Shown here: one piece after another, positions 34,570-37,516 of the stretch
Layout of the letters: each line of letters starts with the position of its first letter
Position numbering within the stretch: the first letter of the stretch is position 1
DNA from: Methylophilus sp. Leaf416
GTDB lineage: Bacteria; Pseudomonadota; Gammaproteobacteria; Burkholderiales; Methylophilaceae
Reading direction: 5' to 3'
Assembly (NCBI RefSeq): GCF_001424665.1
Contig: NZ_LMQS01000005.1
Span: 186,322-250,321 of the forward strand
Length of the DNA: 64,000 nt
Translations under genes and position numbers: made by a program
Notes under the pieces: generated by a model
The model's database searches: none
What the model saw: the letters and a program-made list of their open reading frames with translations, nothing else
What the model was told of the DNA's origin: nothing

Positions 34570-36105
34570 ATGTGTGGAATTATCGGTATTGTAGGTAAAA
34601 ACCCGGTGAACCAGTTGTTGTATGACGGGTTGCTGGTGCTACAGCATCGCGGGCAAGACGCTGCAGGGATTGTGACTTGCGATGGTAATACTTTCCATAT
34701 GCATAAAAATAACGGACTGGTTAAAGACGTATTTCATACCCGTCATATGCGCAATCTGGCCGGTAATGTCGGCATAGCGCATGTGCGTTATCCGACGGCT
34801 GGCTCTTCCAGTGCGGCTGAAGCGCAACCGTTTTATGTTAACTCACCTTTCGGCATTGTGCTTGGCCACAATGGCAACCTGACCAATTCTGAGCAGCTTA
34901 AATCTGAAATGTTCAGGCAAGATCTGCGTCATATCAACACCAGCTCCGATTCGGAAGTGTTGTTGAATGTGTTGGCGCATGAGATTGAAGATACCTCCAA
35001 AAATGCCTTGTTGAACAGCGACATGGTATTTGATGCGGTTTCTGGCGTACACAGGCGCTGTAAAGGCGCTTATGCAGTGGTTGCCATGATCGCTAACTTT
35101 GGTTTGCTGGCATTCCGCGATCCGCATGGCATTCGCCCGTTGGTGATAGGCAAGCAGGAAACCAGCAAAGGTACTGAATATATCGTGGCTTCTGAAAGCG
35201 TTGCCTTGGATGTGTTGGGCTTTACCCTGTTACGTGATGTTGAGCCGGGCGAGGCAGTATTTATCGATATGGATGGCAATTTGTTCAGCCGTCAATGTGC
35301 GCAAAATCCTAAACTGACCTCCTGTATTTTTGAATATGTTTACCTGGCACGCCCAGACTCAGTGATTGATGGTGTTTCTGTTTACCAAACCCGCCTGGAC
35401 ATGGGTACTTTGCTAGGCGAAAAAATCAAGCGCGAATGGGCTGACAAACAGATTGATGTTGTGATTCCTATCCCTGATACCAGCCGCCCGAGCGCCTTGC
35501 AGTTAGGGATTTCACTGGGCCTGGATTACCGCGAAGGGTTTATCAAAAACCGGTATATTGGCCGTACGTTTATTATGCCAGGCCAGGCATTACGTAAAAA
35601 ATCGGTACGCCAGAAACTGAACCCGATCGGCATTGAGTTCAAAGGTAAAAACGTTTTGCTGGTCGATGATTCGATTGTGCGTGGCACCACATCACAGCAG
35701 ATTGTACAGATGGCGCGTGATGCCGGTGCAAACAAAGTGTATTTCGCTTCTGCCGCGCCGCCGGTACGTTACCCTAACGTATATGGTATTGATATGCCTA
35801 GTCGTGACGAGTTGTTGGCAACTGATCGTACCGATGAAGAAATTTGTGCCGAGATTGGTGCTGATGCATTGATTTACCAAGACCTGGATGCATTAAAAGA
35901 GAGCATTACCAAGTCCAACCCACACCTGACAGAATTCGATTGTAGCTGTTTTGATGGCAAGTACGTGACTGGTGATATTGATGCGGCTTACCTGAACCGT
36001 ATTGAGGCGGCGCGTAGCGATTTCAACAAAAAACAACCGCCACCAAATTCAACTACGCAACTGGATTTGAATTTGTTATCAACCGATCTGGTTGGGGTAG
36101 ATTAG
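34570..36105 (+). CDS. purF: Amidophosphoribosyltransferase
   Basis: First committed step of purine synthesis: PRPP plus glutamine to phosphoribosylamine. The N-terminal nucleophile Cys2 (MCGIIGIVG) opens the glutaminase domain, with [11 protein letters not shown] and [19 protein letters not shown]. The phosphoribosyltransferase half carries the PRPP loop [20 protein letters not shown]. Length 511. No Fe-S cysteine propeptide of the Bacillus type is present. Confidence 0.97.
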
Positions 36106-36113
36106 CCCTTGAC

Positions 36114-36134
36114 AGGCGCCATCAGATGGCGTCT
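36114..36134 (+). terminator. Hairpin after purF
   Basis: AGGCGCCAT and ATGGCGTCT pair over nine positions (one G-U) around a CAG loop, 9 bases past the purF stop. There is no T-run, so termination is uncertain; it lies just before the riboswitch. Confidence 0.4.
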
Positions 36135-36140
36135 AATGAA

Positions 36141-36224
36141 ATTGCGCTGATTTGAGTGGCGAACTTTAAACGAAGCCGAACTCAGCTTGCGAGCGCATTA
36201 TAAATCCTGCTAAAGCGAGAGCCC
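36141..36224 (+). promoter_or_regulatory. SAM-II (SAM-alpha) type riboswitch upstream of metZ
   Basis: The stretch carries the conserved SAM-II elements in order. P1 is GCGCT (36144-36148) with AGCGC (36192-36196). GATTTGA follows P1; CTTGC comes just before the P1 3' strand. Then ATAAA, and TGCTAAAG at the 3' side. CTTGC (36186-36190) can pair with GCGAG (36215-36219), forming the expected pseudoknot. The loop is enlarged by an extra hairpin (GAGT..ACTC and GGC..GCC, 36154-36183). The gene downstream makes homocysteine, so SAM repression fits. SAM-II is best known from Alphaproteobacteria; identification is from remembered consensus and awaits a covariance-model search. Confidence 0.8.
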
Positions 36225-36263
36225 AAAAACCCGTTTTAGCGCAATGCTGAAGCGGGTTTTTTA
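36225..36263 (+). terminator. Riboswitch-controlled intrinsic terminator of metZ
   Basis: A 16-bp hairpin (left arm 36225-36240, loop GCAAT, right arm 36246-36261, two G-U pairs) ends in a run of T. The inner left arm CGTTTTAGC (36232-36240) can instead pair with GCTAAAGCG (36209-36217), the 3' pseudoknot strand of the riboswitch, giving a 9-bp antiterminator. SAM binding should free the terminator and stop metZ transcription. Confidence 0.8.
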
Positions 36264-36328
36264 TTGGCTGCATACCTTGTAAAGTTAAATGTGTCGTTAA
36301 AGATTAAGATAGTTGGAAGATTAACAAA

Positions 36329-37516
36329 ATGAGTGATCAATACCATTTGGAAACGCTGGCAGTACGTGCTGGCACGCTGACAACCGAGTTTGGTGAAAAT
36401 TCTGAAGCCCTGTTCCTGAACTCCAGTTTCCGTTTTAAAAATGCAGCCCAGGCAGCGGCAAGATTTGGCGGCACAGAGCCTGGCAATATTTACTCGCGCT
36501 TCACCAACCCGACCGTGACTATGTTTCAGGATAAGCTGGCCGCTTTGGAAGGTGCCGAACAATGCGTGGCCACCGCCAGCGGCATGGCGGCAATTTTGGC
36601 CTGCATCATGGGTATTTGTAGTGCGGGCGACCATGTGGTGGCTTCGCGCAGTGTGTTTGGTACCACCGTGCAGTTATTTTCGAATATCCTTAAACGTTGG
36701 GGGTTGGAGGTGACATTGGTATCACTTACCGATACTGACGCATGGAAAGCCGCTGCAAAACCCAATACCAAATTGTTTTTTGCCGAAACGCCTTCTAATC
36801 CGCTGACCGAAGTAGGCGATATTGCTAAGCTGGCTGAAATAGCCCATGCTGCAGGCGCTTACCTGGCAATTGATAATTGTTTCTGCACCCCGGCTTTGCA
36901 ACAGCCATTGAAATTGGGTGCCGATATTGTGATTCACTCTGCGACTAAATATATTGACGGTCAGGGTAGGGTGTTGGGCGGCGCTGTGCTTGGTAATAAG
37001 ACCTTGATGGAGCCGGTCTATGGATTCTTGCGTACCGCAGGCGTGACCATGAGTGCATTCAATGCCTGGGTATTCGTCAAAGGCATGGAAACACTACAGA
37101 TCCGTATGGAAGCGCATGCGCAACGTGCCTTGGCGATAGCGCAGTGGCTGGAACAACAGCCTCGAGTAGCCCGTGTCTATTACCCTGGTTTACCATCGCA
37201 TCCGCAGTATGTGTTAGCACAACAACAGCAAAGATTAGGTGGTGGCATCGTCACTTTTGAGGTTAAACCACGCGCCGGACAAAACGCGCAGGAGGCCGCC
37301 TGGGAGTTAATTGACGCCACTAAGCTGATTTCAATTACGGCTAATCTGGGTGATGCGAAATCGACCATCACACATCCGGCAACCACTACGCATAGCCGTG
37401 TGTCAGCCGAAGCCAGGGCAGAAGCTGGCATCAAAGATAACCTGGTGCGTATTGCAGTAGGGCTGGAGCACGTTGAAGATTTAAAAGCTGACTTGCAGCT
37501 GCTGTCGCAAGCTTAA
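36329..37516 (+). CDS. metZ: O-succinylhomoserine sulfhydrylase
   Basis: PLP enzyme of the Cys/Met-metabolism family that makes homocysteine directly from O-succinylhomoserine and sulfide. It shows ASGMAAILACIMGICSAGD, the PLP segment AETPSNPLTEVGD, and the Schiff-base Lys in HSATKYIDGQGRVLGG. Length 395. The N-terminal YHLETLAVRAGTLTTEFGEN resembles MetZ rather than MetB or MetC, but these families are close. It is preceded by a SAM-II riboswitch and ends at a strong terminator, so it is a separately controlled unit. Confidence 0.9.
   Translation: MSDQYHLETLAVRAGTLTTEFGENSEALFLNSSFRFKNAAQAAARFGGTEPGNIYSRFTNPTVTMFQDKLAALEGAEQCVATASGMAAILACIMGICSAGDHVVASRSVFGTTVQLFSNILKRWGLEVTLVSLTDTDAWKAAAKPNTKLFFAETPSNPLTEVGDIAKLAEIAHAAGAYLAIDNCFCTPALQQPLKLGADIVIHSATKYIDGQGRVLGGAVLGNKTLMEPVYGFLRTAGVTMSAFNAWVFVKGMETLQIRMEAHAQRALAIAQWLEQQPRVARVYYPGLPSHPQYVLAQQQQRLGGGIVTFEVKPRAGQNAQEAAWELIDATKLISITANLGDAKSTITHPATTTHSRVSAEARAEAGIKDNLVRIAVGLEHVEDLKADLQLLSQA

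Follow-up and report, generated by a model that had tools for sequence, protein, structure and literature searches.

The metZ leader of Methylophilus sp. Leaf416 is probably a variant SAM-II riboswitch with a transcription terminator

The stretch between purF and metZ in Methylophilus sp. Leaf416 raises the question of whether metZ is preceded by a SAM-II riboswitch, and how such an element would act on the gene. A sequence-only reading of the window (the whole 64,000-nucleotide stretch of DNA analysed) had proposed a SAM-II core with an extra hairpin in its loop, followed by an intrinsic terminator whose 5′ arm can pair instead with the aptamer. We compared this leader with those of related genomes. 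The comparison family is presumably Methylophilaceae and its order Burkholderiales, an assumption drawn from the sequence-only reading, general knowledge and Leyn 2014. Loci are denoted by three-digit L numbers. A methionine/SAM gene downstream is a mark of SAM-II, and here that gene is metZ, whose product matched NCBIfam NF006003 with 690 bits (cut-off 522) and TIGR01325 with 585 bits (cut-off 510). The parts of the locus, in window coordinates, are as follows.

up to 36105: purF (TIGR01134), upstream neighbour of the metZ leader
36109..36137, + strand: promoter, with −35 box TTGACA (36109-36114), 17-nt spacer and −10 box TCTAAT (36132-36137)
36143-36219, + strand: compact SAM-II-type pseudoknot aptamer, 3′ of the TTGACA promoter
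36143..36148, + strand: P1 5′ strand TGCGCT, partner 36192-36197
36149..36155, + strand: L1, GATTTGA; UUU (36151-36153) is the putative third strand of the SAM-binding triplex
36157..36178, + strand: loop insertion with weak extra stem, UGGC 36157-36160 / GCCG 36175-36178
36181..36190, + strand: P2 pseudoknot 5′ strand CTCAGCTTGC, partner 36209-36219
36183-36190, + strand: motif CAGCTTGC within the P2 5′ strand
36192..36197, + strand: P1 3′ strand AGCGCA
36198..36208, + strand: L3, A-rich linker TTATAAATCCT, containing ATAAAT (36200-36205)
36208-36219, + strand: motif TGCTAAAGCGAG spanning the P2 3′ strand
36209..36219, + strand: P2 pseudoknot 3′ strand GCTAAAGCGAG, its first nine bases doubling as antiterminator 5′ strand
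36225..36262, + strand: intrinsic terminator, 16-bp stem 36225-36240 / 36246-36261, T run 36257-36262
36232..36240, + strand: antiterminator 3′ strand CGTTTTAGC, within the terminator 5′ arm, partner 36209-36217
36329..37516, + strand: metZ, O-succinylhomoserine sulfhydrylase (NCBIfam NF006003, TIGR01325), the putatively controlled gene

All of the SAM-II core motifs that had been quoted for this leader were found on the + strand, with a 27-nt stretch separating GATTTGA from CAGCTTGC, and the proposed 16-bp terminator folded with 16 pairs, 66 nt before the metZ start. CUC (36181-36183) has two possible partners, the GAG of L1 or the GAG of the 3′ strand (P2a). The −35 box lies 28 nt from the aptamer, and transcription of metZ is predicted to start at about 36144, at the first bases of P1. 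A best-fit search found TTGAC, a 16-18 nt spacer and a −10-like box 6-9 nt 5′ of P1 in 53 of 54 element-bearing leaders, the one without this arrangement being L044. A generic promoter and terminator scan listed nothing at 36000-36400. It missed the promoter because it demands A at the second base of the −10 box, which here reads TCTAAT, and it probably missed the terminator because the T run is partly paired within the stem. An inverted repeat, GGCGCCATCAGATGGCGTC, was seen at about 36114-36134; as a candidate part of the switch it was rejected, since relatives do not retain it and it falls within the promoter spacer.

Rfam's covariance models, on which the sequence-only reading had proposed to check the aptamer, gave no match to the window element at gathering score. 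In a permissive scan SAM_alpha (RF00521) scored 18.5 bits with E 0.046, the best E-value of nine listed families and on its own a weak match, below the 36 bits that operationally define RF00521; SAM-II long loops (RF01726) scored 15.3 bits against a cut-off of 44. A model of relatives did recognise the element. This model, R3, was built from 24 sequences excluding the window's genus (20 from the family, 4 from elsewhere), and matched at 75.2 bits (E 4.7e-21). The next best match in the genome scored 21.0 bits, indicating a single strong copy, and inspection by eye of the metK and metX leaders of the same genome revealed no second one. A tandem arrangement in the window was discarded, there being no second aptamer 3′ of the terminator.

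A second model, R1, was made from 27 metZ leaders of the family with no SAM_alpha-derived sequence included. R1 matched two loci that Rfam calls SAM_alpha, L110 and L114 (67.4 and 66.0 bits with Rfam, 37.8 and 28.8 with R1). Twenty R1-matched loci were scanned with Rfam in turn: 16 had a SAM_alpha match at E up to 0.1, three of them above the cut-off, and L094, L108, L113 and L119 had none at that E-value. Relatives straddle the RF00521 cut-off, most at 25-36 bits, with two loci of the window's order above it (L087, 45.2 bits; L165, 44.8 bits). R1 matches were present in 208 of 300 genomes of the order. In a draw of 299 genomes across the phylum, 26 had one, and 15 of those belong to the order. 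With the SAM_alpha model on a separate sample of 31 genomes, 19 of the window's genus, five were matched and none exceeded the cut-off.

The 97 R1 matches, in 88 loci, gave 91 distinct rows, including some matches to a sister form described below as type 2. In these rows 93.7% of cells in the P1 and P2 pseudoknot structure are paired, and changes on both sides occur in 7 of the 15 pairs (five of six in P1, two of nine in P2). None of 500 shuffles matched the observed pairing, double-change cells or covariation score, and 5 and 13 of 500 matched the other two measures; because the sequences are related, neither these nor the later covariation shuffle figures are probabilities. Sliding the partners by 1-3 columns lowered pairing to 26-47%. 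Six of the nine P2 pairs have no alternative standard pair, with some cells mismatched, and therefore give no covariation support. For the two outer P2 pairs, with 61 combinations, 7 and 7 of 2000 shuffles were as good; in a stricter recount, with 46 combinations, the signal was weaker (17 and 38 of 2000). No shifted P2 register stood out in either count. The first count left 21 rows unparsed (L1 unlike GA[T/G]TTN, TTGC altered, or a partial match; several were repeats), among them type-1 rows of L005, L119, L158, L161 and L162 and type-2 rows of L143, L150-L152, L163, L167-L169 and L171, and it doubled some sites at which R1 and R2, the type-2 model, matched with different ends. The recount merged 149 sites into 126 distinct sequences, the second elements of L169 and L170 and the partial L006 row having been moved or set aside by hand from type 1.

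The window element has a P1 stem of 6 bp, the P2 pseudoknot and the pocket nucleotides of SAM-II: UUU at 36151-36153, UUGC at 36187-36190 and CUAAA at 36210-36214. GATTTG was present in all 27 aligned leaders and, in the recount, in 82 of 86 distinct type-1 sequences, with TTT in all 86. In L3, AAT was invariant in the 27 leaders and a further A and C nearly so. The SAM-V structure, as described in the available passages of PMC6061858, holds SAM by a third strand of U, an adenine-pairing U and U:A.U triples, and its authors call SAM binding in SAM-V and SAM-II "virtually identical". The UUU, UUGC and CUAAA of the window would correspond to this pocket, the mapping to SAM-II being our own. Folded by itself, the aptamer stretch is no more stable than its shuffles (z 0.02), as may be expected because a pseudoknot was here evaluated without its pseudoknot. 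The whole leader has a fold z of −4.3, which we take to come mainly from the terminator and the upstream inverted repeat.

Covariation among the R1 rows bears out P1 and the pseudoknot; the extra stem, offered in the sequence-only reading beside them, varies between genera. A weak stem of 3-4 bp at most is present in the window (−3.8 kcal/mol, z −0.95), its sequence differs from genus to genus, and short loops occur without any predicted stem. Loop z lay between −1.7 and +1.0 for all loci listed except L052 (−2.6) and L054 (−4.1), which have strong stems. On the z values and the stemless short loops, a conserved functional helix was rejected as a core feature. The extra stem is a weak, variable, peripheral insertion, and to describe it as an extra hairpin was an overstatement.

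The regulatory part of the sequence-only reading turned on an alternative pairing, which we recovered exactly: GCTAAAGCG (36209-36217) pairs with CGTTTTAGC (36232-36240) at 9/9 positions with one G-U, and when the downstream stretch was shuffled by mononucleotides 20,000 times, 25 of the shuffles paired equally well. The leader thereby combines a terminator 3′ of the aptamer with a mutually exclusive antiterminator drawn from aptamer sequence, as an attenuator does. The terminator core is predicted at −20.2 kcal/mol and the antiterminator at −8.7 kcal/mol; the antiterminator would therefore have to win kinetically.

The two arms of the terminator are conserved to different degrees. Among 55 distinct family stretches the 9-mer of the 5′ arm has 5 variants, 43 being identical (summed entropy 1.26 bits), and 29 variants (8.09 bits) were counted for the 3′ arm opposite it, a count inflated by insertions because this arm was taken at a fixed offset. 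Out of 495 positions, the 5′ 9-mer is paired in 491 against the aptamer strand; against the 3′ arm, in a gapless count, it is paired in 422. Four loci (L061, L064-L066) were unparsed in this comparison and L063 was excluded beforehand. In a plain terminator both arms would drift together, and the asymmetry fits a 5′ arm that also pairs with the aptamer; another constraint on the 5′ arm could produce it as well. Distant loci carry compensating changes, GCUAAACAG/CUGUUUAGC in L101 and L104 and GCUAAAGAC/GUUUUUAGC in L102, L105 and L107. A terminator was found in 61 of 62 family loci, and the antiterminator complement lay inside its 5′ arm in 58 of 62 loci within the family versus 28 of 56 outside it, a few genomes being counted twice in these figures; the exact switch is therefore not universal.

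These features suggest the following course of events. Transcription would start at about 36144, so that the aptamer (36143-36219) emerges first. With SAM bound, P1 and P2 would hold GCUAAAGCGAG (36209-36219), the terminator (36225-36262) would form, and RNA polymerase would halt about 66 nt before metZ. When SAM is scarce, GCUAAAGCG would pair with CGUUUUAGC (36232-36240), breaking the terminator 5′ arm, and metZ would be transcribed. Once GCUAAAGCG is tied up in P2 the terminator is free to form, and SAM binding is therefore expected to switch metZ off. The same OFF direction has been proposed for SAM-II in the available text of Corbino 2005 (PMC1273637), and for metZ of S. meliloti in that of Scheuer 2022 (PMC9373788). 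The ligand SAM, the OFF direction, the start site and the kinetics are what we infer from this layout; the aptamer helices, conserved pocket nucleotides, terminator and alternative pairing are supported by the sequence comparisons themselves.

The proposal of a SAM-II aptamer with a terminator/antiterminator switch has thus gained support from covariation, the kept pocket, the arm asymmetry and the compensating changes. After all tests it is the best reading, and we hold the explanation as a whole with considerable confidence. The metZ leader is very probably a SAM-II riboswitch that would terminate transcription early at high S-adenosylmethionine, and the element is real and probably functional, as a variant type of SAM-II.

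The element was present in 54 of the 58 metZ leaders examined in the family, a subset of 124 genomes with a metZ match. Two of the four leaders without it are cut by a contig end (L027, L034), and two lack it (L045, L058). In L045 purF and metZ lie very close together. In L048 (275-354) GCAAAAG replaces GCUAAAG and the spacer before the terminator is lengthened; the change would alter the adenine-pairing U, and the aptamer is possibly impaired. L063 has a divergent element in which a terminator was not found. The genes 3′ of the element in relatives mostly concern methionine or SAM: metZ, metX, metH, metK, metN and metY-like genes. One exception was L119, where a type-1 element (1501-1559) is followed by a binding protein of sulfonate-transporter type (SsuA family).

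Three other explanations of the leader were weighed. Its score far below Rfam's SAM-II cut-off might mean that a SAM-II-type aptamer has drifted to another ligand, perhaps S-adenosylhomocysteine or something related to C1 metabolism; the spermidine variant described in the available part of PMC10853860 illustrates that RNAs closely resembling SAM aptamers can recognise a different ligand. The L1 UUU, UUGC and GCUAAA of the window, however, are unchanged from the SAM-V/SAM-II pocket (PMC6061858, as available), and the downstream gene serves methionine synthesis, so that we regard such a drift as unlikely. We find it very unlikely that this is an orphan element with no relation to SAM-II, as would follow from Leyn 2014 (PMC4239095), which in its available passages lists the metXZ element separately, with SAM_alpha only in Rhizobiales and Rhodobacterales, and forms the antiterminator from other conserved regions. 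Against this stand the reciprocal model matches, the above-threshold intermediates and the covarying pseudoknot. Moreover, in the SAM-II P2 the strongly conserved CAGCUUGC finds its partner in GCUAAAG, and those passages report no partner for region 3, which we infer to be CAGCUUGC.

A third explanation is that the hairpin, with its T run, merely terminates purF, which ends just upstream at 36105, and that the conservation before it reflects a DNA-level operator or promoter feature. We consider this highly improbable: the hairpin lies 3′ of a conserved promoter of its own, as does the conserved block, which shows compensating pair changes, and equivalent elements precede metX, metH and metK elsewhere. 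The SAM-II riboswitch thus remains our preferred reading of the metZ leader.

The searches also drew in a sister form. Type 2, first collected by R1, has GAGUUA in L1, and usually reads GAGUUA for GAUUUG and ACAACUUGC(A/G)GGGC for CAGCUUGCGGGC. The five GAGUUA loci scanned (L111, L116, L118, L120 and L122) all precede metK; further type-2 loci are L172, L174, L175 and L186-L265. Among 300 genomes of the order, 193 had an R2 match, a figure that takes in cross-matches to type 1. Named genomes were also scanned with a motif that fixed GAGUUA and was blind to other L1 forms, which yielded at least 80 type-2 loci; among the 80 listed, metK is next in 73, a MATE-type transporter in three and neither was recognised in four. 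The titles of the listed loci are mostly those of beta-proteobacteria, some reading only 'Proteobacteria bacterium'. In 39 distinct type-2 sequences L1 is GAGUUA in 22, GAUUUA in 6, GAGUUG in 4 and another form in 7. One outer P2 pair of type 2 covaries (21 combinations, 0 of 2000 shuffles as good; 10 combinations and 46 of 2000 in the stricter recount). Rfam 15 gave no match above cut-off at the type-2 sites of 17 loci scanned; in L167 a sub-threshold antisense asX2 match (E 0.78) overlaps the site. We did not find type 2 in the open-licence literature.

Several loci have tandems in which a first element with a terminator is followed by type 2. In L156-L170 the first is type-1 SAM-II (for example L158:201-427 and L165:1696-1901). 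The longest downstream ORF was scanned for eight tandem loci. It gave a MATE-family transporter, after a small ORF, in five of them (L158, L161, L165, L167 and L170) and had no match at E 1e-40 in L156, L157 and L159. In L173 (1843-2056) a SAM-I/IV riboswitch (RF01725, 44.5 bits) is placed directly 5′ of type 2; its downstream ORF had no NCBIfam match at 1e-40.

Close to the Shine-Dalgarno region a GGCNACGC recurs that is able to pair with the type-2 3′ strand (GCGUCGCC), which points to a switch acting on translation. An GCGUCGCC-like strand finds at least 7/8 pairs downstream in 57 of 79 listed loci, against about 12 expected by mononucleotide shuffles, and a GGCNACG(C/U)-like site occurs in 47 of the 79; as the loci are related, these counts are descriptive. 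A hairpin over the probable Shine-Dalgarno bases appeared, by our own reading, in about five of eight stretches folded, in a step that left 11 of the 80 loci unparsed. In GAGUUA, G replaces U at the third-strand base touching the adenine-pairing U, and the affinity or specificity for the ligand may differ accordingly. We lean, by a little, towards a reading in which beta-proteobacteria have two SAM-II-like aptamers: type 1, mainly transcriptional (metZ, metX, metH), and type 2, a divergent sister placed before metK or second in tandem, with MATE transporters downstream at some loci. A real type 2 would mean that an unrecognised RNA control acts on SAM synthetase across much of a bacterial class.

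A known Rfam family bears on the same leader from the other strand. RF02424 (Bp2_287), the 'Burkholderia sRNA' modelled as an sRNA on the opposite strand (Khoo 2012, PMC3521395, in the available passages), gave 19 matches in 18 of 120 genomes. Ten of these loci were examined, and all ten had an R1 match on the opposite strand. Nine of the ten matches were below the RF02424 cut-off; the tenth, in L176, was above it (107.5 bits) and sits in the purF-metZ gap, antisense to the two genes. R1 matches L176 only in part (27 bits), and an enlarged linker before GCUAAAG appears to be the reason. The overlaps with the complement of the SAM-II leader are at L176:1501-1703 and in L177-L185. RF02424 thus appears, from these overlaps, to be this SAM-II leader on the wrong strand, i.e. 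its reverse complement. The authors of that study themselves suggested a cis element for methionine metabolism (PMC3521395, as available).

Among known systems, SAM-II (RF00521), as the available text of Corbino 2005 (PMC1273637) describes it, shares with the window element P1, the P2 pseudoknot and a promoter just 5′ of P1, and many of its members have, like the window element, a terminator after P2 and methionine genes downstream. The RF00521 consensus has GAUUUG, CUUGC and GCUAAA in common with the window element, which differs from it in the 27-nt loop stretch, a P2a of the relatives' type (CUC/GAG) and a score of half the cut-off. RF01726 (Weinberg 2010, PMC2864571, in the part available) is, by its name, a SAM-II with an enlarged loop like that of the window element, listed for Bacteroidetes and marine sequences. 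The SAM-II riboswitch of S. meliloti metZ precedes the same gene with a predicted SAM-induced terminator; it is alpha-proteobacterial, and we liken it to the window element by its description in the available text, not by sequence (Scheuer 2022, PMC9373788). Beta-proteobacterial SAM-II elements with terminators were already noted in 2007 (PMC2258182, as available), and the novelty of finding SAM-II here is modest. What is new is the most probable identity of metXZ with SAM-II, the antiterminator partner and the apparent strand reversal of RF02424. For methylotrophs, the switch would put methionine synthesis, which adjoins C1 flux, under SAM feedback, and the comparison points to SAM-II in many genomes below Rfam's cut-off.

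A further counterpart is metXZ. The available passages of Leyn 2014 (PMC4239095) place this RNA element 5′ of metXW (30 of 35 genomes) and also 5′ of metZ, the latter in Nitrosospira, Thiobacillus and three Methylophilales; their scan with Rfam profiles kept it apart and unassigned. Like the window element it is beta-proteobacterial, lies before metX or metZ and has a pseudoknot and a terminator; unlike our reading, Leyn proposed other regions as antiterminator and the element as new. In the open-licence literature metXZ and riboswitch were found together only in Leyn 2014, with no link to SAM-II. On the grounds of gene, taxon and layout, including pseudoknot and terminator, we tentatively equate metXZ with the window element, and metXZ is then most probably SAM-II, a likely identity for an RNA element left unassigned since 2014.
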